From Terriglobia bacterium (GTDB taxonomy: Bacteria; Acidobacteriota; Terriglobia; Acidiferrales; UBA7541), in contig JAIQES010000032.1 in assembly GCA_020073705.1 (NCBI GenBank), positions 1 through 50,112 of the forward strand: 50,112 nucleotides of DNA, written 5' to 3'. The translations under genes were made by a program, and so were the position numbers. The number at the start of each line of letters is the position of its first letter. Within the stretch, counting starts at the first letter, position 1. Positions 21,816-36,318 of the stretch are shown here, in pieces. The notes beneath the pieces were generated by a model. The model worked only from the letters and a program-made list of their open reading frames with translations, searched no databases and was not told the DNA's origin.

Positions 21816-22727
21816 ATGAGGACAATCACGCACATGAAAGCACGCCACTTACTCTTAGTATTGGTGTTTGTTGCGACGAATCTTGCCGCACTTAGGGATG
21901 CCCATGCTCAGGCAACAGCAAGTCCCACCGGGCACGAACGAGGATTTGTCATCTACGAAGCATTTGAAGGGAGCACGAATTCCGACGGTGTCATTACAAC
22001 GCTGACCACCTCCGCAAGTTACAACTTCAATAATCACTTTGCTGCGGGGATCGGAATTCCGATTTATTTTGATCACACTTCGTCTTCGACAGGATCGACT
22101 TCAAGCTCCGGAATCGGGAACGTCTTTCTCACGCTGCGCGGCGTATGGAAAAATCCCGTATTGAATTACGGAACTTCTCTGACCGGATCGGCGCCTACGG
22201 GCAATCAGAATAAAGGGCTCAGCACAGGCCATGCGACATTCGACTGGGACAATCGCGTGGAGCATGACTTTGGCTTGCTCACTCCTTTTGCTGATGCGGG
22301 ACTGGCCAATTCCGTCACCGATACCCGCTATTTTCTGCGTCCCTTCACTTCCTTCGGCAAATTGTTGCACTCCGAAGCGGGCGCGGATCTAGATCTGTCC
22401 CATTCCTTCACACTGACGTTGTCAGCCTACGATATCTTGCCATTTGGAACACAAACGGTATTTAGCAGGTTTGTGAATGCGGGAACGGTGGGGAAGGGCG
22501 GACTGCACGGTCGTGTTTTTGAAGTAAACCACGCGACCTCCGGCACAGCGGACCTGACGCGGGACAACGGCTATACGGCGGGGCTCGACTATAGTCCCAA
22601 GCCTTATCTCAATCTCGATGTTGGTTACACGCGAAGCGTTCACTTTGCTCTGAACACGATCTCGTTTGGCGTGGGTTTCAACGTTAGTTCGTTTTTGTTT
22701 AGAAATAGTCAATCTTCCACTCGATGA
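21816..22727 (+). CDS. Secreted protein, probable outer-membrane beta-barrel
   Basis: A 303-residue protein with a signal peptide (MKARHLLLVLVFVATNLAALRDAHA from the second Met). The mature part alternates hydrophobic and polar residues in short strands with aromatic ends (ITTLTTSASYNFNNHFAAG, NTISFGVGFNVSSFLF). That is the look of an outer-membrane barrel such as those of the MetA-pathway/transporter (COG4313-like) group. The group assignment is tentative. The start ATG has AGGA five bases upstream; the second ATG (21834) would give a more conventional signal peptide. Its stop overlaps an ATG, and a stronger start lies 24 bases later for the next gene, so the two are probably co-transcribed. 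Confidence 0.75.
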   Translation: MRTITHMKARHLLLVLVFVATNLAALRDAHAQATASPTGHERGFVIYEAFEGSTNSDGVITTLTTSASYNFNNHFAAGIGIPIYFDHTSSSTGSTSSSGIGNVFLTLRGVWKNPVLNYGTSLTGSAPTGNQNKGLSTGHATFDWDNRVEHDFGLLTPFADAGLANSVTDTRYFLRPFTSFGKLLHSEAGADLDLSHSFTLTLSAYDILPFGTQTVFSRFVNAGTVGKGGLHGRVFEVNHATSGTADLTRDNGYTAGLDYSPKPYLNLDVGYTRSVHFALNTISFGVGFNVSSFLFRNSQSSTR

Positions 22728-22750
22728 GAAATGAGAAGGAGGTAATTCAC

Positions 22751-23293
22751 ATGAGACGCATGACAGTCATTTCCTTGGTTGTTCTTCTTCCGGCTTTTTC
22801 CGCCGGGATCGGCAGCGCGTACGCGCAGCACGGCCATGGCGGGGGAGGCGCGGGCGCTATGGGCGGGGGCATCGGGAATATGAGTGGCGGCAAGTCTGGC
22901 AATCGTGAAAATGCGGATTCCCATGCGATGGGTGCGGGTGGAAACGCCTCGCACGGCGGCTCTCTGGCTGCCAGCACGAATCCGGGTAATGTGTTGGATC
23001 ACAATGCGCAGCTTTCGACAAAGCTCGAAGGCATGCTGAATCTTTCGGGCCCGAACGCCCTCAGTGCGTTGAAGACCGATGCCAGCGGATTTAAGAACTT
23101 CGGTCAATTCGTGGCGGCGGTGCACGTCTCCCACAACCTGGGCATTCCGTTCTCCGATCTTCAGAACAAGATGACGGGGCCGAGCGCCGTCAGTCTCGGA
23201 AAAGCGATCCAGGACCTGAAACCGGATGCTGATGCCAAAGCGGAGGCGAAGAAAGCAGCGAAGCAAAGCGACGAGGATATGAAGGGGACGTAG
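22751..23293 (+). CDS. Secreted Gly/His-rich protein of unknown function
   Basis: A 180-residue exported protein. The signal peptide (MRRMTVISLVVLLPAFSAGIGSAYA) is followed by a low-complexity zone of Gly, His and Ala (QHGHGGGGAGAMGGG) and then a conserved-looking region (LEGMLNLSGPNALSALKTDASGF and SLGKAIQDLKPDADAKAEAKK). The start is decided by a near-perfect AAGGAGG five to six bases before the ATG; an earlier ATG at 22724 overlaps the previous stop and lacks a site. The Lys/Ala-rich C-terminus ends SDEDMKGT. It follows the barrel gene directly. A His-rich mature part could bind metal, which is a guess. Confidence 0.8.
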   Translation: MRRMTVISLVVLLPAFSAGIGSAYAQHGHGGGGAGAMGGGIGNMSGGKSGNRENADSHAMGAGGNASHGGSLAASTNPGNVLDHNAQLSTKLEGMLNLSGPNALSALKTDASGFKNFGQFVAAVHVSHNLGIPFSDLQNKMTGPSAVSLGKAIQDLKPDADAKAEAKKAAKQSDEDMKGT

Positions 23294-23364
23294 AGGTGGA
23301 GGGCCTCGAACGAATTGGCGGGCAGCTGATACTCAGTCACGCACGTGGAATCGGTACCTCGTGC

Positions 23365-24474
23365 CTAGGGGGTACGCCCGCGTTCAAACAGTCTCGAGAA
23401 TTCATCCCGCGAAGCAGGGGACACTCCCGCGAGCGCGAGATTTGCGCGCACGTGCTCGACGCGGCTCATGCCCACCAGAGCCGTCGTGATCCCAGGCGTC
23501 GAACGCACAAACTGCAGCGCGCGTTCCGCATCGTTCTGCAACCCCAGCGCGGAGACAACGAACGAGGGCAAGCCGCGCGACAACTGGCCCTGCAGCAACG
23601 CGGCGCTCGCCACCAGCGTGATGCCAAGCTTGTTCGCGATCTCGACCATGGGCACGCGGCGCGCGTCGAGCGGCTGGTTCGAGCGCGTCAGCGCTTCGGT
23701 CATGCCCAGGTTGCACGGCAGTTGCACGAAGCGGAAATGGTGCGATGCGCCTGCGACATCGCGCGCGAGTGACTCCATGGCGGCGAGGGAAAGATAATCC
23801 TGCGCATTCTCGGTCTGTCGGAAAGCATTCCACGTGGTCATACCGTAGAAGCGAATCTTCGTGGCGGCGACCGCGGACTCCAGAAACTCAAACGCCGCGC
23901 GCACCCGATTGTTGAACATCTTGCGCGGCACTTCGCCCAATTGTGTTTCCGGGTTGTGCAGGTAATAGACGTCGATCGTCTCGACGCCGAGGTTGCGCCC
24001 GCTGCGCTCCAGCTGGTCGGCGATGAAGAGGGGCGCCATGGAATGGCACCCGGCAGCGACATCTCCTTCGCGCAAGATGTCCGTGGCCACGTATTCGCGT
24101 TGAAAATATTCGTTCACGTCGGCGGGCATATCGCTGTCGGGCGTCAGGAAGCCCCCCTTGGTGCAGATCAGCACCTCCTCCCGCGCAAAACCGCGCCGCG
24201 CCAGCTCTTCGAGTGCCGCGCGCACGGAGCGCTCCGAGCGCTGCAGGCGATAGTTGATCGCGGAATCGATCACGTTCGCGCCAGCCTCGACGGCGGCAAC
24301 GATCGCCTCGGTGTACTGCTGATCGGTGCGCGCATCGGCCTCTCCCAGATAGGTGCCGATGCCAATGGAGGAAAGCCACAGGCCCTGCTGCTCCCGGAAG
24401 TGTCCCGCGGCGGCGCGCCCGGCAAATCGCGCCGCGTATTTCTTCGTGCCATCCGAAGTTGCAAATGAGCTCAT
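23365..24474 (-). CDS. Aldo/keto reductase family protein
   Basis: A 369-residue NAD(P)H-dependent oxidoreductase of the aldo/keto reductase (TIM-barrel) family. Landmarks are LSSIGIGTYLGEADART (start of barrel), EAGANVIDSAINYRLQRSERSV (catalytic Tyr in NYRLQ; the expected Asp in DSAINY), a Lys in LICTKGGFL, and a His-containing segment DVYYLHNPETQLGE. Later the nicotinamide site region FVRSTPGITTALVGMSRVEHVRANLALA is the usual end. The N-terminal extension to residue 30 is longer than many family members. The gene is on the minus strand, separate from the following UvrC-like gene by 51 bases. The substrate is unknown. Confidence 0.88.
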   Translation of the reverse strand: MSSFATSDGTKKYAARFAGRAAAGHFREQQGLWLSSIGIGTYLGEADARTDQQYTEAIVAAVEAGANVIDSAINYRLQRSERSVRAALEELARRGFAREEVLICTKGGFLTPDSDMPADVNEYFQREYVATDILREGDVAAGCHSMAPLFIADQLERSGRNLGVETIDVYYLHNPETQLGEVPRKMFNNRVRAAFEFLESAVAATKIRFYGMTTWNAFRQTENAQDYLSLAAMESLARDVAGASHHFRFVQLPCNLGMTEALTRSNQPLDARRVPMVEIANKLGITLVASAALLQGQLSRGLPSFVVSALGLQNDAERALQFVRSTPGITTALVGMSRVEHVRANLALAGVSPASRDEFSRLFERGRTP

Positions 24475-24518
24475 CTCACCCCGCAGGAAAGAAAGCGCCG
24501 ATTATATGTGATCCACTC

Positions 24519-24550
24519 GCGTTTATCAGTGTCCATCTGCTGCGGTTTCT
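24519..24550 (-). repeat. Small dispersed repeat (AACCACAGATGG family), copy 1
   Basis: Read on the minus strand this is a variant of a repeat that recurs at 31189-31223 and 37593-37620 (AACC-CAG-AGATGGACAC-TGATAAAC style). It overlaps the last codons of the UvrC-like gene: the residues ETAADGH and the stop codon are repeat-encoded. Copies are imperfect, with short insertions between CACAGATG/GACAC blocks. Confidence 0.6.
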
Positions 24551-25752
24551 GCCTCCGGCGGGGCCAGCAGGCGCGAGCAGGCGCGGAGAATTCTTCGATA
24601 GGGCCATTCGCTGTTGCGGCGCGCGTTCGCGGCATCCTGTGGGCTGGCCGAGGAAGAGCGCGCCGTGCCTTCGCGAAAGAAGATTTCGCCAACTCTCGGC
24701 TTTCCGTAGAACCAGCGCGCGAGCAGGCTTAACTGATCTTCCAGTTCGCGGTAGCCCTGCGGCGCTGTGCCCGGTCCTGTGGAGGACGAATTCTGATCTG
24801 CTGCCGGCTCCATCCATTCGCGAAGAATCTGCTCGACCGGGCGGGGCTCACTGGCCAGTTCCGCGAATCGCAGCATGCGCGGCTCATCGATGCGCCCGCC
24901 GCGCACCAGGAACACTTCGACCGTGTGTTCCTCCGCCGCACGCTGGAGAACGACGGCGTTGAGGTCGTCGAGCCGCCGCGCCAGTTCGGGCAATCCGCGC
25001 AAGGCTTCGGCGGTCTTCTCGACGCGGCGATGGACTGCGGCGGCGCGCTCAAAATCGAGCGCTTCGCTTGCTGCTTCCCGCTCGCGCTCCAGCTCTGCCA
25101 TGAGCGACGCGCCGCCTGTCGCCAGAAAGGAGACCGCGCGACCCACTTCGGCGTCGTAATCCTGCTTCGTGCAACCTGCAAAGCAAGGAGCAAGGCACAT
25201 CTTCATCTCAGAATACATGCAGCCGGGGTAGCTCGGATCACGTCGAATCTTGATCTGGCAGCGGCGGATCTTGAACAGGTCGAGGAATCCGGAGGCGAAC
25301 GCATCGGCCGCGCGCCGCGAAGGGAACGGACCGAAATAGAATCCGGTCGCACTGATGCGCCGCGTGGCATAGCAACGCGGATAGGCGTTTGTGAGGCTGA
25401 CCTTGAGCACGGCGGGCGGGCGCAGCCGCAACCTCTCGCGATACGCCGAAGGCCAGAGCCGCCTGGCGTGCTGCCAGTGCAGGAAACTCAATTCGAAAGG
25501 GGAGCCCACGACCCGGTAATGAACGCGCGCGGCGAATTCGCGCAGGTTCAGCCTCTTCGAGGCAGGATCGGGCGGGCCGAGCAGCCGCACGAGGCGTTGC
25601 CGCAGATTTGCCGTGCGCAGCAGGTAAGGTTTCGCGCCGGTTAGTTCTTCGCGCGGCTCGACGGCAAACACGGCAGGCCGCGCCGGCACTACGGCGAAAA
25701 ATTCGCTGTCGCGTGCGGCGTCAAACTCCGCGTTCGAATCAAGCTCCTGCAT
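24526..25752 (-). CDS. UvrC N-terminal-half homologue (degenerate GIY-YIG, UVR domain)
   Basis: A 408-residue protein homologous only to the first half of UvrC. In place of GIY-YIG there is AVFAVEPRE and PYLLRTANLRQRLVRLL, so the two catalytic tyrosine motifs are altered and the usual catalytic Glu is not obvious (PFELSFLHWQH). It keeps ATRRISATGFYFGPF, the cluster-type cysteines (CMYSEMKMCLAPCFAGC), and a UVR (UvrB-binding) motif ASEALDFERAAAVHRRVEK. The C-terminal RNase H-like nuclease and helix-hairpin-helix domains are absent. It could be a regulatory or accessory binding partner of UvrB. Start: ATG at 25752 lacks a good ribosome site; the longer reading enters the repeated region. The C-terminus is repeat-derived. 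Confidence 0.8.
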   Translation of the reverse strand: MQELDSNAEFDAARDSEFFAVVPARPAVFAVEPREELTGAKPYLLRTANLRQRLVRLLGPPDPASKRLNLREFAARVHYRVVGSPFELSFLHWQHARRLWPSAYRERLRLRPPAVLKVSLTNAYPRCYATRRISATGFYFGPFPSRRAADAFASGFLDLFKIRRCQIKIRRDPSYPGCMYSEMKMCLAPCFAGCTKQDYDAEVGRAVSFLATGGASLMAELEREREAASEALDFERAAAVHRRVEKTAEALRGLPELARRLDDLNAVVLQRAAEEHTVEVFLVRGGRIDEPRMLRFAELASEPRPVEQILREWMEPAADQNSSSTGPGTAPQGYRELEDQLSLLARWFYGKPRVGEIFFREGTARSSSASPQDAANARRNSEWPYRRILRACSRLLAPPEAETAADGH

Positions 25753-25873
25753 AAAGGAGGCCTGCCTCGTGAGTCGCTTGCCCAGAGCCCACCTCAGCGG
25801 GCGAAGGGTGATTCGTGGAAAGACTACGATGCGGTGAACGGAGTTGAAAGTCAAAAGTTGCAGGCCGAAAGTC
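25649..25873 (-). repeat. 225-base direct repeat, copy 1 (intact UvrC-like 5' end)
   Basis: The same 225 bases reappear in the same orientation at 30879-31103, with 15 mismatches by eye and no insertion or deletion. This copy covers the first codons of the UvrC-like gene and its upstream region. The boundaries are sharp: sequence on each side is unrelated. It marks the left edge of a roughly 5 kb cassette. Confidence 0.92.
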
Positions 25874-25957
25874 CGATGAAAATCGTTTCACAGTGTCGCG
25901 AAGAAGCGAGAGGGGTGTACTATGGTGCCGTTTTCGAGATCAAAAAGGGGATTCCAG

Positions 25958-27076
25958 ATGATGACCAAGCTGCAGGACACGGAAGTCGTGTGCGTGAGTC
26001 GCCGGGAGGCAGTCGCGCGTTTGATGGCTGCGGGAGTCGGGATGGTCTCGATGTTGAGAGGGAATGTAGCGAGAGCACAGCTTGGAGCGCCGCCGGTCGT
26101 GACACCCCCTCCTGATCCAAAATTCCCGATACCAGCCAGTTGGAAGACAGAACTCAGGAAACTCGGCCCCAACGTCTTCGCTTACATCCAGGCCGGGGGC
26201 GTGGGCCAGGGCAGCGGCGCTGGCGTCAGCAACGCCGGCGTTATCGTCGGGGATGATCACCTATTGGTAATCGACACCCTGGGACAGCCGCTTCTCGTGA
26301 AGGCTTTTATGACGGCGGTCCGGAACACGATCGGGAACAAGCCGTTCGGCCGCGTGGTCAACACGCACCAACACTCAGACCACGTAGGCGGCAATCAGTT
26401 CTTCATGCCGGCTGAGATCGTGGCGCACCCGTTTTGCCGCGAGACCGTCATCAAAATGGCGGCTGCCTTGCCGCCGGGCGCAAAATTTGAAAAGCACGGG
26501 GGTTGGGCCGACGGCACGGAAGACCGGAGACAAATCGTCCCAGGCACAACCGTTACGGACAAGTTGACCTATTACAACTACAATAACGGTACGGCCGTGG
26601 AGATCTTCCACCCGGGTGTCGCCCACACATGGGGCGACCTGATGGTTTACCTGCCCGATTACAAGATTCTGTTTGCCGGCGACATTGCGGTATTCAGCAT
26701 GACGCCGTGGACCCACAATGGATATGTGACCGAGTGGCTGAAAGTCCTCGATAAGATCATGGGCATGGACGTCGAGACGATTGTTCCCGGCCACGGCCCG
26801 ATCGGTGGCAAGAAGGAGTTGGCGGAGGTACGCGAATACTTCCTGATCCTCAAACGCGAAGCGAGGAAACGCTTCGATGCCGGGATGAGCCCCGGGAAGG
26901 CCGCCGCTGACATCAAGATGGGCAAGTTCGACAACTGGATCGGCGCGGAGCGGAACCTTCTGAACACATTCCGCCTCTACTGCGAATTCGACGGCACCAT
27001 CACACCCATATGGGACATGGACCGATTGCGTCGGGCGATCGACGAGTACAACGCCATCCTAAAAGCGCGTGGCTAG
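25958..27076 (+). CDS. Metallo-beta-lactamase fold hydrolase, Tat-exported
   Basis: A 372-residue MBL-fold protein. A twin-arginine-type N-terminus (SRREAVARLMAAGVGMVSML) ends in ARAQ, so it is probably exported folded. Metal-site motifs are complete: NTHQHSDHVGG (H-x-H-x-D-H), GVAHTWGDL (His), LFAGDIAV (Asp) and VPGHGP (His). The C-terminal extension (about residue 290 on) is helical. The start is ATG-ATG at 25958 with AAGGGGA upstream; an earlier ATG at 25922 is less supported. Substrate is unknown (lactonase, SoxH-like or arylsulfatase-like). It is the first gene of the cassette and is followed, 45 bases later, by the Abhydrolase_10-like gene. Confidence 0.88.
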   Translation: MMTKLQDTEVVCVSRREAVARLMAAGVGMVSMLRGNVARAQLGAPPVVTPPPDPKFPIPASWKTELRKLGPNVFAYIQAGGVGQGSGAGVSNAGVIVGDDHLLVIDTLGQPLLVKAFMTAVRNTIGNKPFGRVVNTHQHSDHVGGNQFFMPAEIVAHPFCRETVIKMAAALPPGAKFEKHGGWADGTEDRRQIVPGTTVTDKLTYYNYNNGTAVEIFHPGVAHTWGDLMVYLPDYKILFAGDIAVFSMTPWTHNGYVTEWLKVLDKIMGMDVETIVPGHGPIGGKKELAEVREYFLILKREARKRFDAGMSPGKAAADIKMGKFDNWIGAERNLLNTFRLYCEFDGTITPIWDMDRLRRAIDEYNAILKARG

Positions 27077-27121
27077 AGACGAGTACTTAGTTCGTAACGC
27101 CGAATAAAAGGAGTGCGGTCA

Positions 27122-29248
27122 ATGTCTGACCAAACTGACCGGCGAGGTTACCGCCGCGCGACTTGGATGATTGGCGCCTGTCTCTGCGCCTGTTTTATCG
27201 GCGTCATCTGGGGGAGCACCGTGCTGGCGAGATCGCAAACAGGGCCAGCGCACAAACCGGCGCTCGCCGCGGCTGGCCGGCACGCATCGCGAATTACGCA
27301 CGTGCAGATTGATTCCGTGGAATCGCCGACCTTCGAAGGTCACTCGTTCGGCAGCGCGGGCCGATATGAAAGGCTGCTCGGACGCTTTTCCGGCGAACTC
27401 GATCCCGCCGATCCGCTGAATGCGTTCATCGTCAACATTGATCGCGCTCCTCGCAACGCCCAGGGGATGGTGGAATATTCGGCCGACTTCCGCATCCTGA
27501 AACCAATCGACATGTCGCTCGGCAACGGGAGCATGTTTTATGACATCCCCAACCGCGGTACCCAGCGTGCATTCAACCTCCACGAAGACTTCAAGGGAGC
27601 CCTCGGGAGCTATCCACCCAAAATGGAGAATCTGGGCGATGGCTTTTTGCTGGAGCAGGGGTACACGCTGGTCTGGAGTGGATGGCAGGCCGATGTGCCG
27701 CCGGGTGACGGCCGCATCACAGCCCGGCTCCCGATTGCAAAGTTTCCGGACGGCAGTTCCTACCGGCGTTGGATTTCGACAGAGCTCCTCTTTGAGCGCC
27801 CCACGCGCTCGGGGGATATCGACTACCCAGCCGTCGAAGACACCATGCCCAAGGCGATGTTGTATAGACGAGCGACGCCGCACGCGTCTCTCGAACTTGT
27901 TTCACGTGATTCATGGTCCTTCGCGAAGTGCGGCGGGTCCGGCGCGCCAGTTGCCAGTAATAAGGATGTGTGCCTGCCGGCCGGGTTCTCGACGGATTTT
28001 ATCTACAACCTGGTCTACGAGGCCCGGGATCCATACGTCATGGGGATTGGGTTTGCCGCGATTCGCGATTTTGTGTCCTTCCTCCGGTACGACACCACGA
28101 ACACCAACCCAATCGTCACGCGTCGCGGCGGGTCAGGTGGTAAGGGTAACTCTATCAGGTCGGTCATCATGTTCGGCCAGTCCCAGTCCGGACGGCTCGT
28201 CAGGGACTGGATCTATCAGTCGGGCAATCGAGACAACGCGGGACGCAAGGTCGTCGACGGCGCCATTGCCCATACCGCTGGGGCACGCCGCACGTTTACG
28301 AATTACGTGTTTTCGGAGCCTGGTCGCTTTCAGAGACAAGTCGAGGATCACTACTTTCCGGGGGACCAGTTCCCATTCAGCTACGACACGATGACCGATC
28401 CGGTGAGTGGCAGGATCGATGGCCTGCTGGAGCGCTGTCGCGCCGCGGGGACATGCCCAAAAATCATGCAGTGGGATTCCGGCAGCGAGGGGTGGATCGC
28501 GCGCGCCTCGCTCGTCGTCACCGATCCGCTCGGGGTGACGGATCTCCAGTTGCCGGCGAACGTAAGGCTCTTTTACTTTTCCAGCACGCAGCACCAGGCG
28601 GGAACTGGCGACGATCCGCCGCCTGACTCGCGGGGCATCTGTGAGCAGCTTCCCAATCCGAATCCGTATCGCGAGACCCAACGCGCGCTCTTGGGCGCGA
28701 TGCGTGCCTGGGTAACGAAGGGAACCCCGCCGCCGGCCAGTCAATATCCGAAGCTGTCAGATGGAACGCTGGTACCATCGCTCCCCCAGGCGGCGCAAGG
28801 ATTCCCCGCGATCCCGAGGGTCCGCTACACGGGGAAATTCAACGACCTATTCATCAATGACTATTTTACTGTGCCCACGCGCCACACGATGGCCGAGTAT
28901 ACAGTGCTGGTGCCGAAGGTGGACCGCGATGGCAACGACATCGCAGGCGTCCGGTCAACCATGGTTCAGGTACCGCTCGGCAGCTATACTGGCTGGAACG
29001 TGCGCCGGGCGGGCTTCATCGGGGGCGAGGTCTGCGGCACAAATGGCTCCTATATCCCATTTGCGAAAACAAAGGCCGATCGCGGCTCGGATTCACGGCT
29101 GTCGCTTGAAGAGCGCTACGGTACACAGGGCCGCTATGTGGACCAGGTGCGGGCGGCCACAGAGCGGCTTCAGCAGGAGGGCTTCCTGCTCCCGAAGGAT
29201 GCGGAGAGACTCATCCGCCAAGCGGAGCATCGCAATCTCGGTTTATAG
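27122..29248 (+). CDS. Alpha/beta hydrolase domain-containing protein (Abhydrolase_10-like)
   Basis: A 708-residue exported protein of the large alpha/beta hydrolase group typical of Acidobacteriota. A membrane-spanning signal lies near residues 15-37 (WMIGACLCACFIGVIWG). A VQIDSVESPTFEG-type opening is followed by a beta-rich N-terminal part. The nucleophile elbow appears as MFGQSQSGRLVRDW (G-x-S-x-S-G form). The likely acidic residue is in the GQ-rich mid-part and the His in a C-terminal motif (VPTRHTMAEY); these assignments are tentative. AAGGAG eight bases before the ATG decides the start. It follows the MBL gene on the same strand. The stop is directly followed by a transposase remnant. 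Confidence 0.8.
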   Translation: MSDQTDRRGYRRATWMIGACLCACFIGVIWGSTVLARSQTGPAHKPALAAAGRHASRITHVQIDSVESPTFEGHSFGSAGRYERLLGRFSGELDPADPLNAFIVNIDRAPRNAQGMVEYSADFRILKPIDMSLGNGSMFYDIPNRGTQRAFNLHEDFKGALGSYPPKMENLGDGFLLEQGYTLVWSGWQADVPPGDGRITARLPIAKFPDGSSYRRWISTELLFERPTRSGDIDYPAVEDTMPKAMLYRRATPHASLELVSRDSWSFAKCGGSGAPVASNKDVCLPAGFSTDFIYNLVYEARDPYVMGIGFAAIRDFVSFLRYDTTNTNPIVTRRGGSGGKGNSIRSVIMFGQSQSGRLVRDWIYQSGNRDNAGRKVVDGAIAHTAGARRTFTNYVFSEPGRFQRQVEDHYFPGDQFPFSYDTMTDPVSGRIDGLLERCRAAGTCPKIMQWDSGSEGWIARASLVVTDPLGVTDLQLPANVRLFYFSSTQHQAGTGDDPPPDSRGICEQLPNPNPYRETQRALLGAMRAWVTKGTPPPASQYPKLSDGTLVPSLPQAAQGFPAIPRVRYTGKFNDLFINDYFTVPTRHTMAEYTVLVPKVDRDGNDIAGVRSTMVQVPLGSYTGWNVRRAGFIGGEVCGTNGSYIPFAKTKADRGSDSRLSLEERYGTQGRYVDQVRAATERLQQEGFLLPKDAERLIRQAEHRNLGL

Positions 29249-29366
29249 GACAACCTGGGCAACCTGTGGCGGTGGCTGGTGCTGCCGAAGAGAATCGACC
29301 ACTGGTCGCTCATGAGCTTGCAGCAGCGGCTGGTGAAAAACAGGCGGACGGCTGATCAAGCACGCC
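29249..29366 (+). mobile_element. Transposase 3' remnant (IS1380-family-like)
   Basis: Translation right after the hydrolase stop gives DNLGNLWRWLVLPKRIDH and continues WSLMSLQQRLV, a pattern I recognise as the conserved C-terminus of IS1380-family transposases (YNLGN-LWRRLVLPK-ID-WSL-SLQQRLVK). After VK there is one extra A; in the next frame the sequence resumes as TGGRLIKHA, again matching. So the transposase is truncated and frameshifted. The N-terminal part and inverted ends of the element are absent. Confidence 0.7.
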
Positions 29367-29369
29367 GTC

Positions 29370-30692
29370 TTATTTCCACGCGGCTGAACGGAACGGCTGG
29401 CCGACCAAAAGCTCTGGCCGTGCACCTTGCCGGGGACGGAACTTTTGCGCTCGACCGTTGGAGACCTCGGCCATATACAGGTTGCCTTCCTGGTCCACGC
29501 TGATCTGGTGCGCGCCCCACATTGCTCCCGGCCAGTCACCCTGGCTTCCCCAGGAATACAGGAAGTGACCGTCCTCGTCGTATTCCAAGAGCTTCCACGT
29601 TCTGCTGTCCGGGGCCCAGATATGGTGATCCGCCGTTATCAGCAGACAATATACAGTGGATTGAGTCCCGGTGCTCCACATGTCGAGGAACTTCCCGTTC
29701 TCGTCGAAGACCTGGATGCGGCGGTTACTTCTGTCGTTCACAAACACCTTGTGCGTATCGGGATCGTAGGCAATGCCATGCACAGCATTGAAGTAGCCTG
29801 GGCGGGTCTCAACTTCTGGAATAGACATATTCACGCGAATGCCCGGTTTTCCCCAATCCAGCAGGAATTTGCCGTCCTTGTCAAATTTCGCGACGCGGGT
29901 GCCATTGTATCCGTCCGCAACCCACATGGTGCTGTCGGGCGCCCAGGCAATAAACGTCGGCCTGTTGAAGTGCGTAGCATCGGCGCCTTCCTTGCCAGGC
30001 GTGCCCAGCGTCAGCAACAGCTTTTTCCCGTCGTGGGTAAACTTGTAGACGGAGTGGCCCGCATCATCGACCACCCAGACGTTCTTCTCCGCATCGTACG
30101 GGTTGACGTAAATGGCGTGCGGCCGCTTCAGCATTTTGTCCCATTGCGACCAGTTCTCGACGATATCGCCATTGGAATTCACCACAACCAACACGTGCTC
30201 CCAGCGGCCGTCAACGCCAATCTTGCCTTTCCAAAGGCCATTCTCTAAGCCCGTCCCCGCTGCGCCAGGCCCGCCTTCTCCAGGCAACGCGGCTACGGGA
30301 CCTTGTGAGGCATTGCGGAACGGTACTTCGTTGACCGGGAAGGAGAGGCTCGGCCCGAACTGCGGCACTGGAGTGTTTGGCGGTCTTTTCAAAGCGGGGA
30401 GCTCGCCTCGCTGAAGGATGTAGACCCGGTCAGGGCTCTCGGCGAAGATGCCCTCCACTGCTCCCCAAGTCCACTTCTCGTGTCCCGGCAACGAGGTGAG
30501 AGGTTTTGGCCAATCCGCAACGACGTCGTACGGACCAGAAACATCTTGACCACCTTTCTCTCCCGGCACCGCCGCGAAGCTGGCTGGGGCCTTCGCTCCT
30601 TCCTGGGTCGGCGGTGCTGTCGAACAGCCAACCAGTGAAATTACGCTGAACGCAGCAGCAGTCGTAATTGTCTTAATCGCAGATCTGAGCAT
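29370..30692 (-). CDS. NHL-repeat beta-propeller lipoprotein (peptidyl-amidating-lyase-like)
   Basis: A 440-residue predicted lipoprotein. The signal has MLRSAIKTITTAAAFSVISL and a lipobox LVGC, with Cys near residue 23. The rest is a six-bladed NHL beta-propeller: repeats such as NVWVVDDAGHSVYKFTHDGK, TMWVADGYNGTRVAKFDKDG, KVFVNDRSNRRIQVFDENGK and LYMAEVSNGRAQKF. Such propellers occur in peptidylglycine amidating lyases, but the function is not set. AGGAGG six bases before the ATG fixes the start. It is the last gene of the cassette, convergent with the hydrolase. Its extreme C-terminus (GQPFRSAAWK) lies beside the transposase scar and may be altered. Confidence 0.85.
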   Translation of the reverse strand: MLRSAIKTITTAAAFSVISLVGCSTAPPTQEGAKAPASFAAVPGEKGGQDVSGPYDVVADWPKPLTSLPGHEKWTWGAVEGIFAESPDRVYILQRGELPALKRPPNTPVPQFGPSLSFPVNEVPFRNASQGPVAALPGEGGPGAAGTGLENGLWKGKIGVDGRWEHVLVVVNSNGDIVENWSQWDKMLKRPHAIYVNPYDAEKNVWVVDDAGHSVYKFTHDGKKLLLTLGTPGKEGADATHFNRPTFIAWAPDSTMWVADGYNGTRVAKFDKDGKFLLDWGKPGIRVNMSIPEVETRPGYFNAVHGIAYDPDTHKVFVNDRSNRRIQVFDENGKFLDMWSTGTQSTVYCLLITADHHIWAPDSRTWKLLEYDEDGHFLYSWGSQGDWPGAMWGAHQISVDQEGNLYMAEVSNGRAQKFRPRQGARPELLVGQPFRSAAWK

Positions 30693-30878
30693 ATGTTTCC
30701 TCCTGAGGGTTTCGGAACGAGGGCCCAGTGAGCTTGATTTGATATTGGGATACATCAACGGGAATTTCCGCCTACAAGCCTACTTTCGCGCGAAGAGTTA
30801 CACACGGTGCCCTTTCGTGTCAAGCGCAGCCGTCCCATCTTAGTCTCAGGCGGATCACACCGCGCTTCGACCGTTCTG

Positions 30879-30982
30879 TCGCGCGGCTCGACGGCAAACA
30901 CGGCCGACCGCGCCGGCGCCCCAGCGAAAAATTCGCTGTCGCGTGCGGCGTCGCACTCCGCGTTGGAATCAAGCTCCTGCAT
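30879..30982 (-). pseudogene. 5' fragment of UvrC-like gene
   Basis: Within the second repeat copy the frame begins MQELDSNAECDAARDSEFFA and matches the intact gene at 24526-25752, then turns into unrelated sequence after about 34 codons. A remnant without an effective protein. Confidence 0.8.
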
Positions 30983-31103
30983 AAAAGAGGCCTGCCTCGT
31001 GAGTCGCTTGCCCAGAGCCCGCCTCGGCGGGCGAAGGGTAATTCGTGGAAAGACTGCGATGCGGTGAACGGAGTTGAAAGTCAAAAGTTGCGGGCCGAAA
31101 GTC
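30879..31103 (-). repeat. 225-base direct repeat, copy 2
   Basis: Second copy of the 225 bases at 25649-25873, offset by 5230 bases, same orientation, 15 mismatches, ungapped. It carries the upstream region and first 34 or so codons of the UvrC-like gene, but the reading frame diverges at once after the copy. It marks the right edge of the cassette. Confidence 0.92.
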
Positions 31104-31188
31104 TAAAGGCGTCCTTGCTTCGGACCGCCATTTGTTGGGTGTGAGTTCTTAATTCAATCTTGATCTCCAGTTCTTGCCGGGGAATCTC

Positions 31189-31223
31189 TTATCCGTGTTC
31201 AACTATGTCCATCTGTGGTTTCC
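31189..31223 (-). repeat. Small dispersed repeat (AACCACAGATGG family), copy 2
   Basis: Read on the minus strand: GAAACCACAGATGGACATAG, then TTGAACACGGATAA. It lies just 3' of the HIT-family gene, about 30 bases past its stop, whereas the other two copies overlap gene ends. Confidence 0.6.
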
Positions 31224-31249
31224 ATACGTTTTCAGCACCCAGGCGGAAA

Positions 31250-31732
31250 TCACGAACTCAAAGCACGGCCGAGTTTCGCATAGGTTGTCGCCAGTTCCTC
31301 CGGTTCGAGTCGCGTCTCGCTGATGGAGGTCATGAAGTTGGTGTCGCCCATCCACCGCGGCAGCAGGTGGAAATGCAAGTGGTCGGCGAGGCCCGCGCCA
31401 GCCGAGCGGCCCAGATTCAGGCCGAGGTTGTAGCCTTCCGGATGGTAGACCGCATCGAGCGCCGCTTGTACCCGTTGCGCAAGCAGCATGATTTCCGCCG
31501 TTGTTTGCGTGTCCAGCCGCGCGAAATCCGCCGTATGCTCGTACGGGACAATCATGACGTGGCCTGACGTATAGGGGTAGCGGTTCAGGATGACGAAATT
31601 CTTTACGCCGCGCAAGACGATGAGCATTTCCTCGTCGCGGTTTGCAGCCGGGGCCTCACAGAAAACGCACCCGGCGAGCTTGCCAGCTCCGGCGATGTAG
31701 CGGTAGCGCCAGGGCGTCCAGAGGTAATCCAT
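31250..31732 (-). CDS. HIT-family nucleotide hydrolase/phosphorylase
   Basis: A 160-residue HIT-family protein. The start MDYLWTPWRYRYIAG and CVFCE (zinc-type cysteines) are hallmarks of the Ap4A phosphorylase/HIT branch found in actinobacteria and acidobacteria. NLGLNLGRSAGAGLADH precedes the catalytic triad DHLHFHLLPRW (H-x-H-x-H). The reaction is probably hydrolysis or phosphorolysis of dinucleoside polyphosphates. It is 47 bases downstream of the ihfB-like gene on the same strand and may be read from the same promoter. Confidence 0.93.
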   Translation of the reverse strand: MDYLWTPWRYRYIAGAGKLAGCVFCEAPAANRDEEMLIVLRGVKNFVILNRYPYTSGHVMIVPYEHTADFARLDTQTTAEIMLLAQRVQAALDAVYHPEGYNLGLNLGRSAGAGLADHLHFHLLPRWMGDTNFMTSISETRLEPEELATTYAKLGRALSS

Positions 31733-31779
31733 AGGGGAGGTTGGTCATTGGCGGCGGAGGGAGCCCGCCGGATACGCCT

Positions 31780-32121
31780 TCAGCTCTGCGGCGCGGCCGG
31801 TGTAGCGCCCGCGCCAGGGGAGGCTGGCGCACCGCCATTGACGTGATCTTTCAGCTCCTTGCTGGGCTTAAAAAATGGGATGCGCTTGGGCGGCACTTCC
31901 ACTTTGGCGCCTGTTTTCGGGTTGCGCCCGACGCGGCCGCGGCGCTGGCGGGTGCGAAAACTGCCGAAGCCGCGGATCTCGATGCGGTCTCCGCCCTGCA
32001 GCGCGCCGATGATGCTCTCAAAAATAGTTTCCACAATGGCTTCGGATTCTTTGCGTGGAAGTTCTGCGACGCGGACAACCTCTTCAACAAGGTCCGCTTT
32101 TGTCATGGTGGAATCGGTCAT
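31780..32121 (-). CDS. ihfB: HU/IHF-family DNA-binding protein (IhfB-like)
   Basis: A 113-residue nucleoid protein, longer than the usual 90-95 because of an Ala/Pro/Gly-rich C-terminal tail (PASPGAGATPAAPQS). The core is clear: MTKADLVEEV, IESI-like helix, GDRIEIRGFGSFRTRQRRGR and the DNA-intercalating arm with RNPKTGAKVEVPPK, then FKPSKELKD. The arrangement downstream of rpsA matches the rpsA-ihfB order of proteobacteria, which supports the IhfB name, though HU cannot be excluded. The start at ATG 32121 has GGAG nine bases upstream; a second ATG five codons in lacks one. The gene is read from the rpsA strand. Confidence 0.9.
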   Translation of the reverse strand: MTDSTMTKADLVEEVVRVAELPRKESEAIVETIFESIIGALQGGDRIEIRGFGSFRTRQRRGRVGRNPKTGAKVEVPPKRIPFFKPSKELKDHVNGGAPASPGAGATPAAPQS

Positions 32122-32308
32122 CGATTTATACTCCGCAGAGTTCTGAATTGCACCCGGAGGTGCTTGGCGAATCGGGCCAAATGGGCGCGCCACTGGTTTG
32201 CCGGATACCCTGTCTAAGACGCGCCGCCTTTGGTGGCATTTCCATATCACTAAATGAGCGTGAAGGGAAATAAAATTTACAGCTCCGGCCGGGGAGCCGC
32301 CGAAGCCT

Positions 32309-34288
32309 CTACAGAGAACGCTTGGCCATGATGGCATCGCCGATCGTGGCTGTCGCCGAGGATCTCGACGAGCGGTAATCCTCCATGTCGCGGCGCTCCG
32401 CCTGTTTCTGCGCCGCACGGTAGCTCAGCCCGATCTTGTGCTGGTCGGGACTGATTTTCACGATTTTGAATTCGTACTCGCGGCCGGGATCGAGCAAACC
32501 GCCCTTCCGCGCGCGCGGGCCCGGCCCCGCGGTTTGCGGCTTGTCTCCCTTGGGGCGCCGTTCATCAATTTCGGAGATGTGGCAGAGGCCTTCGATTCCG
32601 TCCGCAATTTCGACAAATGCGCCGAATGTTGTGACGCGCGACACCTTTCCGCGAACCAAATCGCCGACCTTGTGTTTCTCAAACCAGCTGGACCAGATGT
32701 CGTTCACCTGTTTGACGCCGAGCGCTACACGCCGCGACGCTGCGTCGATCTTCAGCACCTTGGCCTCGACCGCGTCGCCCTTCTTGAAGACCTCGGCGGG
32801 ATTTTTCACCCGCCCGGTCCAGGATATGTCGCTGACGTGGATCAGGCCATCGAAGCCTTCCTCGATTTCCAGGAACGCACCGAATTCCGTCAGGTTCCGG
32901 ATGCGCCCGCTGACCACTGTGCCGACAGGATACTTCTCGGCGAGTTGCAGCCACGGATCGGCCTGCGCCTGCTTCATGCCGAGCGAAATGCGCCGCTCGT
33001 TCGAATCGACGCCCAGCACGACGACATCGACGTCATCGCCAATCTTCACAATCTTTGAAGGGTGCTGCTTGCGCTTCGACCAGCTCATCTCACTGACGTG
33101 CACCAAGCCTTCGATGCCCGGCTCGAGTTCAACGAATGCGCCGTAGTCCGTGAGGCCCATAATCTTGCCGGTGAGCTTCGTGCCGACCGGGTAGCGCTCC
33201 GGCACCGAGACCCAGGGATCGGGCAGAAGTTGTTTGCGCCCGAGCGATATGCGTCCCTTTTCACGATCGTATTTCAGGATCTTGACTTCGACTTCCTCGC
33301 CTGGGCGTACGGCGTCGAGCGGGCTTGCCACGCGGCCCCAGGACATGTCCGTGATGTGCAACAGGCCGTCAATGCCGCCCAGGTCCACGAATGCGCCGTA
33401 ACCCGTCACGTTCTTCACGACGCCGCGTACGATCTGTCCTTCCGCCATCGCGTCGAGCATTGCCTGCCGCTGCGCTTGCGCCTGCTCGTCCAGAATCGCG
33501 CGCCGGCTGACCACCACATTCCCGCGCTTGCGATTCATCTTCAGCACGCGAACCGTGAGTTCACGGTCTTTCCACTGATCGATGTCACGTACCGCGTGCG
33601 TATCGGCCTGCGACGCCGGCAAAAACGCGCGCACGCCGATGTCCACCACCAGCCCGCCCTTGATGTGATCCACAACCTTCCCGATCATGTCGGTCTTGTT
33701 GCGGTAGGCTTCTTCAATCTTGTTCCAGATGCGGCGGCGGCGCACCCGCTGGTAAGACAACAATACGTAGCCGTCCTTGCGGTCGCCGGTTCGCTGGACT
33801 TCGACCGGCTGCCCGGCCAGCAACGGGAACGGCCCATCCAATTCAGCAAATTCCTGCGCGGGGATCAGCCCCTCGGTCTTGCCGCCCAAGTTGACGACCA
33901 CGCCGAGGTCGGTCACAGCCACGACCTGCCCGGATTCAATCTCGCCTTCAGCCGGCACCTGATGCGGCGCGGCATACTGCTCCATGAGCTGTTCCATCTC
34001 TGCGGTCGATTCGGTGGAAGCCTCCCCCGATTCCACCGCGGAACTCACGTTGGAATGCTCCACTGCGGCAGGGCCTTCCGGTTCCGAAACGGGTTCGGCA
34101 GGAGCAACTGTTACGGCGGCTGGCTCCACAGCGACGGGGCCAGAAAACGTATCGTGAGTTTCAGCCGCAGCCGGAAGCGCTTCTCCTGTCACTACAGTTG
34201 GAATTGTGGATTCTGGCGCCGATGTGGCGACGGTCGCGGATTGTCCGGCGGAAATTTCCACGCCGGGGTTTTCGTTGTCGGATAACAT
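32309..34288 (-). CDS. rpsA: 30S ribosomal protein S1
   Basis: A 659-residue mRNA-binding ribosomal protein with six S1 (OB-fold) domains. Each has the G-x-V-x-x-[IVL]-x-x-[FYG]-G-A-F-V-[DE] core, for example VKNVTGYGAFVDLGG, MGLTDYGAFVELEPG and RNLTEFGAFLEIEEG. A nonstandard feature is an N-terminal extension of about 115 residues rich in Ala, Pro, Glu and Val. Between the last S1 core strands is an inserted basic/Pro-rich loop (ERRPKGDKPQTAGPGPRARK). GGAGG seven bases before ATG fixes the start. The order S1-IhfB-HIT suggests one transcription unit; the gap to ihfB is about 187 bases and could hold an extra promoter. Confidence 0.95.
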   Translation of the reverse strand: MLSDNENPGVEISAGQSATVATSAPESTIPTVVTGEALPAAAETHDTFSGPVAVEPAAVTVAPAEPVSEPEGPAAVEHSNVSSAVESGEASTESTAEMEQLMEQYAAPHQVPAEGEIESGQVVAVTDLGVVVNLGGKTEGLIPAQEFAELDGPFPLLAGQPVEVQRTGDRKDGYVLLSYQRVRRRRIWNKIEEAYRNKTDMIGKVVDHIKGGLVVDIGVRAFLPASQADTHAVRDIDQWKDRELTVRVLKMNRKRGNVVVSRRAILDEQAQAQRQAMLDAMAEGQIVRGVVKNVTGYGAFVDLGGIDGLLHITDMSWGRVASPLDAVRPGEEVEVKILKYDREKGRISLGRKQLLPDPWVSVPERYPVGTKLTGKIMGLTDYGAFVELEPGIEGLVHVSEMSWSKRKQHPSKIVKIGDDVDVVVLGVDSNERRISLGMKQAQADPWLQLAEKYPVGTVVSGRIRNLTEFGAFLEIEEGFDGLIHVSDISWTGRVKNPAEVFKKGDAVEAKVLKIDAASRRVALGVKQVNDIWSSWFEKHKVGDLVRGKVSRVTTFGAFVEIADGIEGLCHISEIDERRPKGDKPQTAGPGPRARKGGLLDPGREYEFKIVKISPDQHKIGLSYRAAQKQAERRDMEDYRSSRSSATATIGDAIMAKRSL

Positions 34289-34483
34289 CTTACGGCCTCC
34301 AAGAGGGCCAACCCTGCTTCCCGGAAGAATACTCCGGGGAATCTTCCCAGTCACGGGGCAAGTGCAAGGAAGGAGATGCGGCATCCCACCCAGGGGCCGC
34401 ACCGAGGCGATGATACCCGCGCACCGTCGCCTGTGTCAATCAAACTGACTCGCCTGCCCTGGCCCCGCGAAGCGGTGCGAAGG

Positions 34484-34504
34484 GTGACCCGTGATTCGTG
34501 AATC
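34484..34504 (+). repeat. Heptamer tandem repeat, three units
   Basis: Three 7-base units GTGACCC, GTGATTC, GTGAATC in register. The same unit type recurs at 37533-37553, 39182-39209 and 39245-39265. Confidence 0.7.
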
Positions 34505-34753
34505 GCACCCTCTGCCGTGGACAGAGTAGAAGAAGAAAGTGGAAGAACTGAAACCGAACAATCCATTAAAGCGCTAATGTCGGGAGCTGATCTGCTTCCC
34601 GGCCTGCAGGCCGGGGTGCCACGTCAACTTCCGAGTCGGCGACGATCCGAGAATTATCGCATAGTGGCTCGAACCGGAATGTCGAGTGCGGCTACTTCTC
34701 CCGGTAGCGCGTTACATGAATAGTTGACGCGTCCGGAGTGCTTGTCACACATG

Positions 34754-34783
34754 TTGGTGATCCACTAATTGTGATGCCATAAT
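34754..34783 (+). promoter_or_regulatory. Possible sigma-70 promoter for the metal ABC transporter
   Basis: TTGGTG (34754-34759) and CATAAT (34778-34783) with an 18-base spacer, about 43 bases before the first gene's ATG. Neither box is perfect. GTGAT is repeated inside and just before, but I see no clear Zur or Mur operator. Confidence 0.35.
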
Positions 34784-34825
34784 GCAGCGGCTGGCCTGCG
34801 CTCGGGGGCTGAGTCGGACTTAAAC

Positions 34826-35524
34826 ATGACGCCTATACTTTCAGTGCGGGATCTCACGATTAGCTTCGGGAATCGCACTATCATCCAGCACTTGAACTTT
34901 GCGGTCGATCCCGGTGATAACTTGGCGATCATCGGACCAAACGGTGCTGGCAAGACTGTCCTTCTCCGGGCCTTACTGAATTTGTTGCCCTACGAGGGTG
35001 CCATTCAATGGGCACCGGATGCCAAATTAGGCTACGTTCCCCAGAAAATCGCTGCAGATCGGCGCCTGCCACTATACGTAAACGACCTTCTGGCCGCAAA
35101 AGCGCGGTTACTGAAACTCCCCGCCCAGGATGTTCGACTGGTCGCAGACAGGGTGGGACTTACTCCAGAACTACTCGAAACCAGCGTCGGCATACTCTCC
35201 GGAGGAGAATTCCAAAAGGCTCTGATCGCATTCGCTTTGCTGGGGGATCCAAACGTACTGCTGTTCGACGAACCGACGGCCAGTCTCGACGAACTAGCGG
35301 AGGAACATATCTACGAATTATTGCGAGACTTACAGCGCGAGCGTCATTTAACTCTTCTTCTGGTCTCGCATGATCTCAGTGTCGTGTACCAGTCCGCGAC
35401 CAAAGTGCTCTGCCTCAGCAAGGGAAAGCCCTGTTTTGGTCCTCCCAGAGAGATCTTGACCCCGGAGACTTTAGAAGCCGTTTATTCCGCGCCACTAAAA
35501 TTCTACAAGCATTACGGTCATTAG
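34826..35524 (+). CDS. Metal ABC transporter ATP-binding protein (ZnuC/MntB-like)
   Basis: A 232-residue ABC ATPase. It has Walker A GPNGAGKT, Q-loop VPQK, signature LSGGEFQKALIAFALLG, Walker B VLLFDEPTA and the H-loop switch SHDLSVV. This is the ABC_Metallic family (Zn2+/Mn2+/Fe2+ uptake), with the permease of the same family right after it. Start: ATG 34826 with GGA seven bases upstream; weak, but an upstream alternative is not seen. No substrate-binding protein gene (ZnuA type) is next to it in the window. Confidence 0.92.
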   Translation: MTPILSVRDLTISFGNRTIIQHLNFAVDPGDNLAIIGPNGAGKTVLLRALLNLLPYEGAIQWAPDAKLGYVPQKIAADRRLPLYVNDLLAAKARLLKLPAQDVRLVADRVGLTPELLETSVGILSGGEFQKALIAFALLGDPNVLLFDEPTASLDELAEEHIYELLRDLQRERHLTLLLVSHDLSVVYQSATKVLCLSKGKPCFGPPREILTPETLEAVYSAPLKFYKHYGH

Positions 35525-35535
35525 GGGATCAGCAG

Positions 35536-36318
35536 ATGTTTCATTCAGGCGAAATCTACGCGATCATATTGGCTCTGCTCTTCGCTGTTGCCGCCGGCCT
35601 GGTCGGTAGCTTTGCACTCATGAAACGGATGCTTTTGGCCAGCGATGTGATCTCGCACGTGGCGCTTCCCGGACTAGGCCTGGCCTTTCTTTTCCATTTC
35701 AATCCGCTACTTGGCGGTTCCGCGACCTTGCTTGTGGGTACGCTGTTGATCTGGCAACTCCAAAAGCAAACGGGCCTCGCGACCGAGGCCATGATCGGTG
35801 TGGTATTTGCAGGGTCAGTCGCCATCGGCGCCGTTTTGACTCCGAAGGAAGACCTGGTCGAGGCATTGTTCGGGCGGTTCCAGGATCTCTCGCTCGTGGC
35901 GTTCTTGGTTGGAGCTGCCGCCGTTCTGCTTATTATCCTGGTTATCTTCCGATTCAGGGATGAACTGATTTTGGGCCTGTTCGCACCCGAATTGGCCGCC
36001 GCAACGGGCATGAAGCTTGAAAGACTGAACCTATATTTCCTCCTGGCGTTCAGCCTGTCCGTTCTTGTAGGCCTGCGTTTCCTGGGCGCGCTCCTCGCCG
36101 GATCGTTGATAATCATTCCTGCAACCACCAGCCGGCGGCTTACAAATAACCTGTCGCACTTTCTAGTCGTTTCTTGCCTTGCCAGCGTGGTGGCTGTCGG
36201 ATCGGGCTTTGCCGTGACTCGTTACATGTTGCCCCAAATCAGCCCGGGACCAGTTATTGTCATCATTTCCGCGGCTCTATTCATATTGAGCCTGCTTAAG
36301 AAGCCTGCTCCCGCTTAG
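35536..36318 (+). CDS. Metal ABC transporter permease (ZnuB/ABC-3 family)
   Basis: A 260-residue inner-membrane permease of the ABC-3 family. It has about eight hydrophobic segments and conserved loops, e.g. MLLASDVISHVALPGLGLAF (cytoplasmic coupling and metal-path residues) and GLRFLGALLAGSLIIIPATTSRRL, which is the diagnostic C-terminal block of ZnuB-type permeases (LRFLG-LL-SLI-IPA). It starts 11 bases after the ATPase stop, so the pair is an operon. The specificity for Zn2+ or Mn2+ cannot be set from sequence. Confidence 0.93.
   Translation: MFHSGEIYAIILALLFAVAAGLVGSFALMKRMLLASDVISHVALPGLGLAFLFHFNPLLGGSATLLVGTLLIWQLQKQTGLATEAMIGVVFAGSVAIGAVLTPKEDLVEALFGRFQDLSLVAFLVGAAAVLLIILVIFRFRDELILGLFAPELAAATGMKLERLNLYFLLAFSLSVLVGLRFLGALLAGSLIIIPATTSRRLTNNLSHFLVVSCLASVVAVGSGFAVTRYMLPQISPGPVIVIISAALFILSLLKKPAPA

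Follow-up and report, generated by a model that had tools for sequence, protein, structure and literature searches.

A block of 5,005 bp at the start of a uvrC-like gene in a Terriglobia bacterium is best read as an insertion into a locus that related genomes keep without it, a reading supported by comparison with those genomes. The block is bounded by two 225-bp direct copies of the beginning of the uvrC-like gene. The finding holds up, although as an insertion with partial gene duplication it is a rearrangement of an ordinary kind. The block begins with a repeated promoter-like element and lies next to the deletion of a neighbouring gene, acd, two features that a sequence-only reading of the same DNA had missed. 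The features discussed below lie in the 50,112-nucleotide stretch of DNA that was analysed (the window).

24526..25752, minus strand: intact UvrC-like gene, 408 aa, with a UVR motif and weak UvrC similarity
25649..25873, minus strand: repeat copy 1, joined to the intact uvrC-like gene
25874..25957, plus strand: core of a dispersed promoter/leader-like element, with a -10-like TACTAT at 25918-25923
25874..30878, no strand: inserted block, 5,005 bp, its proteins without a match in 80 uvrC-like loci
25958..27076, plus strand: MBL-fold hydrolase (MBL; PF00753), probable ATG at 25958 or 25961 by eye, directly after the element
27122..29248, plus strand: Abhydrolase_10 protein (ABH; PF20091), ATG at 27122 by eye, with a GTG listed at 27113
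29250..29366, plus strand: internal piece of a DDE_Tnp_1_4 transposase gene, 117 bp, 95% identical to contig C77
29370..30692, minus strand: NHL-repeat protein (NHL), convergent with ABH, its start resembling a lipobox by eye
30879..31103, minus strand: repeat copy 2, the uvrC-like gene cut off after 34 codons, together with the 121 bp upstream of it
31188..31253, minus strand: acd remnant, the last ~11 codons (31221-31253, stop lost) plus 33 bp of downstream sequence
31250..31732, minus strand: HIT-family gene, its last codons and stop lying within the HIT/acd deletion joint

The two repeat copies lie on the same strand and align without gaps, with 15 mismatches in 225 positions (93.3%), while outside both edges identity drops to background, at 1-5 matches per 10-base step. 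The sharp edges and the identity of about 93% had been noted before and are confirmed, as is the attachment of one copy to a complete UvrC-like gene and of the other to its first ~34 codons only. Each copy comprises 34 codons and 2 bases of the uvrC-like start plus the 121 bp upstream of it; if one gap is allowed, the alignment extends to 231 columns. The pair is the sole self-match of the window at E<=1e-5 (E=2.6e-94), and five first-order Markov shuffles of the window gave no comparable self-match (best E=0.014). When copy 1 was searched against the host genome (97% complete, 78 contigs), two places were found, both already in the window, which rules out the ordinary dispersed repeat family that had been named as a possible refutation. 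The name UvrC-like stands in so far as a UVR motif is present (22.1 bits); the relationship is weak, with a TIGR00194 score of 86.8 bits against a cut-off of 285. Another UvrC-type protein is encoded in a 636-codon open frame on contig C40.

In four relatives (G001, G002, G004 and G005) the gene order is rpsA, HU, HIT, acd, uvrC-like and aldo-keto reductase (AKR); in a fifth (G003) the contig stops inside acd, after HIT. Alignment of four proteins gave 143 related stretches, of which the best 80 were kept. Their records are metagenome-assembled genomes, with titles that include Acidobacteria, Terriglobia and Candidatus Acidiferrales bacterium. In these best 80 of 143 uvrC-like loci, the MBL, ABH and NHL proteins of the block had no match at E<=1e-5, an absence tested over unequal distances, the loci being 3-17 kb long and 44 of them about 17 kb. 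HIT and the uvrC-like gene were both present in 33 of the 80 loci, and acd lay between them in 32, the exception being L192. In the relatives the uvrC-like start occurs once and the block is absent; the 121 bp upstream are not recognisable there, and the single-copy state, which the sequence-only reading had proposed to look for, is visible for the coding part of the repeat only. The survey suggests that the gap between acd and the uvrC-like gene takes insertions repeatedly. In L185, L189 and L196, from other genomes, this gap measures about 5.2, 2.1 and 1.8 kb.

Nine of the 15 mismatches between the repeat copies fall within codons and six outside, and all six of the latter are transitions. 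Six of the 34 codons differ, two of them silently. Conserved residues, defined here as common to copy 1 and at least three of the four relatives G001, G002, G004 and G005 and read from alignments, are lost in copy 2 alone at three positions (F to C, V to A and P to S). At one residue both copies depart from the relatives, and at none does copy 1 depart alone. Copy 1 has undergone silent change too: all four relatives side with copy 2 at codon 6. Because the conserved residues were lost in copy 2 and kept in copy 1, the repeats likely diverged after the duplication, on modest evidence from few sites (34 codons). The pattern fits an intact copy that has stayed under constraint and a truncated one on which constraint eased once the segment had been duplicated. 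The sequence-only reading had left open whether the repeats diverged or came from a diverged donor; later divergence is now favoured and a diverged donor is the less supported of the two.

The three proteins recognised earlier between the repeats are confirmed by Pfam as MBL, Abhydrolase_10 and NHL, and all three have export-like N-termini by eye. What had been called an IS1380-like scar is a 117-bp transposase piece with 95% identity to an internal part of a DDE_Tnp_1_4 (PF13701) gene on contig C77. This scrap lies 1 base from the end of ABH and 3 bases from the end of NHL, so the block is pieced together from parts. Genomes of the host genus each carry several members of the family of the NHL protein (29370-30692).

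In composition, the block resembles its surroundings. Its GC content is 59.3%, compared with 59.5% for the rest of the window. The GC z-scores of MBL, ABH and NHL are -0.34, 0.25 and -0.43 relative to the 20 other window ORFs taken as genes, the codon GC3 of the block genes is no outlier among window genes, and the tetranucleotide distance of the block is equalled or exceeded by 11 of 91 windows. A clearly foreign composition was thus rejected, in a comparison with the window rather than the whole genome, and the proposed check of cassette codon use and GC against the flanks showed nothing that sets the block apart. A search of 399 class genomes, a plasmid collection and contig scans also found no donor molecule, plasmid or second genome carrying the block. 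The flank-like composition and the empty donor search lend no support to the earlier claim of entry from a related genome; a donor may exist outside the collections searched. ABH had matches in 17 of 61 genomes (host included), the best outside the host at 47% identity. Among the 399 class genomes drawn, it was found at E<=1e-140 in the host and G047 only (47% identity in G047). In the plasmid collection it matched 21 records, of which the ten listed were 36.6-38.4% identical, and in the collection of genome contigs it gave 33 stretches, none of them from a relative. Paralogues of MBL and ABH are present in the host genome.

The three proteins had been proposed to act as a secreted catabolic unit. 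This was surveyed at 40 loci, made up of 31 of 33 ABH-homologue places (the window place excluded) and nine of ten close-MBL places. None of the 40 carries close homologues of MBL, ABH and NHL together, and these loci show no fixed unit. Among the 31 ABH loci, an NHL protein lies nearby in five and a distant MBL in four; among the nine close-MBL loci, an NHL lies nearby in one and an ABH in none. All three families occur together within about 7 kb in two ABH loci of genus g7, a different genus of the same family, L286 (G011:C373) and L287 (G032:C168), with identities of 38-39% for ABH, 55% and 49% for NHL, and 31% and 24% for the distant MBL. A loose association of the families is therefore possible. 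A shared role of the three proteins is possible, as a guess.

On the other side of the block, acd has been deleted at the window locus. Starting 84 bp beyond repeat copy 2, positions 31188-31253 align to the final 33 bp of acd (acyl-CoA dehydrogenase) and to 33 bp past its end. The stop codon is gone, the acd remnant frame continues as FVISAWVLKTY, and HIT now ends in the joint. A homologue of acd with 86% identity lies on contig C60 (G000:C60:37956-39095), next to a methylmalonyl-CoA-mutase-like gene (named by eye from its translation); the next best in the genome is at most 53% identical. The C60 acd is followed, after 72 bp, by another transposase scrap, of the family already represented in the block. 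An origin of the two scraps from a single element split in two was considered and rejected, since the block scrap is 95% identical to the C77 copy and the C60 scrap 81%. A tie between the departure of acd and the arrival of the block was considered, and nothing connects the two events. In genus g7, only 15-131 bp separate HIT from the uvrC-like gene in L192 (same contig as G032:C602), G011:C48 and G023:C140; acd is missing in these three genomes too, apparently through independent loss.

The left edge of the block is marked by an element that recurs in this bacterial family. The block starts exactly where the alignment to the dispersed element starts (25874). Several other copies have a further upstream part that the window copy lacks, repeat copy 1 standing in its place. 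BLAST located the element at 22 places in 10 of 61 family genomes. A sequence-only model built from 13 copies, with 50 candidates scored per genome, matched at least 45 of 89 family genomes at E<=0.01, many of the matches near 0.01 being weak, and seven places in the host. At E<=1e-10 there were 37 places in 16 of 89 genomes among the matches listed, the model's own sequences included. Further host (G000) copies lie on contigs C42, C34, C15, C46 and C62, with a weak one on C63. Several copy pairs align 58 to 177 bp further upstream of the core. One cross-species pair, from G001 and G004, extends over 221 bp at 91% identity and precedes AAA-domain and NHL proteins; at the uvrC-like locus the same two genomes are 76-82% identical.

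None of the 13 aligned copies departs from the T, A and T of a TAnnnT motif, and this conservation, together with the position of the element, would support a promoter role. In an orientation test, 42 copies were located in loci and the 39 at E<1e-4 were counted, the window included. A frame of at least 150 codons starts on the same strand within 150 bp downstream in 31 of the 39 copies, compared with three of 39 upstream on the same strand and 17 of 39 on the divergent strand. Orientation toward downstream genes is strongly preferred, not absolute; no long frame follows the L148 and L153 copies. Scans of ten downstream proteins placed them in ten different Pfam families, which include Amidohydro_3, Epimerase, Amidase, Peptidase_M20, GT87 and Beta-lactamase. 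Near close homologues of the MBL gene (45-51% identical, perhaps not orthologues) the element was found at none of nine loci at E<=0.1, and the 31 ABH loci gave one weak match (L289, E=0.032). A simple consensus promoter scan did not call the element, and no known RNA family was found in 24000-33000. The element thus occurs upstream of non-homologous genes and is absent at close MBL homologues, the latter comparison concerning the window gene only. By these features it looks like a spreading promoter-leader and may belong with the 'mobile promoters'. We tentatively read it, with the balance tipping slightly towards doubt, as a mobile promoter-leader of an Acidobacteriota family, about 85-220 bp long, which spreads between unrelated genes and species and brings captured genes (such as the MBL-ABH pair) under a shared promoter. 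The main alternative is a regulon promoter kept by selection. At positions 8260-8340 of L086 (G000:C77), after a DDE_Tnp_1_4 transposase gene and before another gene, a stretch resembles the leader end by eye. This is perhaps a second element family; the element model has no match there at E<=0.1.

These observations can be arranged as two remodelling events, in the host lineage, of an ancestral locus rpsA-HU-HIT-acd-uvrC-like. In one event, acd was deleted from the end of HIT to its own last ~11 codons, a homologue surviving on C60. In the other, the 5-kb block, with the promoter-like element, MBL, ABH, the transposase scrap and NHL as cargo, was inserted where the uvrC-like gene begins, and 225 bp became duplicated. 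The route we favour is a single crossover (Campbell-type integration), in which the incoming DNA would have carried the 225-bp segment and been circular, or circularised by end joining. Since the duplication includes the 121 bp upstream, which presumably hold what the uvrC-like gene needs for expression, the intact copy would keep its own 5' region and the insertion would be tolerated, while the other copy decays. The inserted DNA lies between two direct copies of a single segment, and a single crossover would explain this anatomy in one step, with an experimental parallel in Escherichia coli. We regard this route as evenly balanced between acceptance and doubt: the earlier proposal of Campbell-type integration holds for the insertion and the anatomy, a circle and a foreign donor being putative. 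The circle, the crossover, the order of events and the source of the DNA are what we infer from the arrangement. The duplication of 225 bp is far longer than the usual target duplications of transposons, and no inverted-repeat pair of at least 25 nt was found in 22000-36000; both points speak against a transposon insertion.

Break repair or replication with template switching explains the anatomy as simply as a single crossover does, and we consider it possible, if rather doubtful. Synthesis would leave the uvrC-like gene at codon 34, copy the block from elsewhere in the genome and resume 225 bp earlier, the duplication being the overlap, without a circle or foreign DNA. The sharp edge in mid-gene, the flank-like composition and the MBL and ABH paralogues in the host agree with such copying. 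At the right edge of the block a 5-base GTTCT match with one extra G leans the same way, and illegitimate joining or template switching fits that edge as well; the HIT/acd deletion and the joints from ABH through the transposase scrap to NHL also point to illegitimate joining. Against copying, the 4 of 44 first-look candidates in the genome that were scored included no further near-identical copy of the block, and the route would need later loss of the source. Ku-dependent end joining is disfavoured, because no Ku gene was found in the 97% complete host genome by a search that, among 14 control genomes, matched only B. subtilis. Native tandem duplication of a larger uvrC-like segment, followed by insertions and by deletions down to 225 bp, would account for more than one joint inside the block, yet several deletions would have had to leave exactly one ungapped 225-bp pair in a window with no other self-match at E<=1e-5, and we judge it improbable. 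An artefact of assembly is conceivable in a metagenome-assembled genome in 78 contigs, judged from the assembly rather than from reads, but is very improbable: the longest exact run common to the two copies is 35 bp, both flanks belong to one ancestral locus, and the block is like the flanks in composition.

The locus is a clear case of a large insertion tolerated beside a conserved operon, and its wider interest lies in the promoter-like repeat, which most deserves further study. If the element moves on its own, unrelated genes of these soil bacteria could be switched to common control.

The closest experimental parallel to the proposed single crossover comes from E. coli, where, in the available excerpts of PMC3240628, re-circularised DNA integrated so that 56 of 60 tested clones gave a duplication-type PCR product, and 14 sequenced clones carried duplications of 109-950 bp. 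As there, a direct duplication (225 bp here) flanks the insert, and one gene copy is complete and the other truncated. Unlike in the E. coli case, the copies here differ by 6.7%, and the integrated molecule, its circular form and its donor are putative. One homologous anchor combined with one illegitimate joint at short microhomology also recalls homology-facilitated illegitimate recombination as outlined in the same excerpts; there, recipient DNA is generally lost at the joint, whereas a duplication is found here, the acd scar starting 84 bp past copy 2.

A literature search found no paper on such an element in Acidobacteriota, and promoters are unmentioned in the accessible portions of two acidobacterial genome papers. 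Many short repeats, which could include elements of this kind, have been reported in Ca. Solibacter usitatus (excerpts of PMC3174227). Mobile promoters (Matus-Garcia 2012; van Passel 2014, as cited in passages of PMC8049555 and PMC9208149) are described as short repeated promoter-like sequences. Like them, the element stands before genes unrelated to one another, in a single genome as well as in different species; it differs in the length of the shared stretch, up to about 220 bp for the longest pairs, and its promoter activity is predicted from sequence. Like MITEs and REP-like repeats, it is short, non-coding and dispersed, with several copies per genome. Unlike them, it lacks inverted repeats of 10 bp or more, as tested in two long copies, has no convincing conserved fold (nine pairs at -1.7 kcal/mol, with a single compensatory change in one of them), and shows a preferred orientation toward downstream genes.
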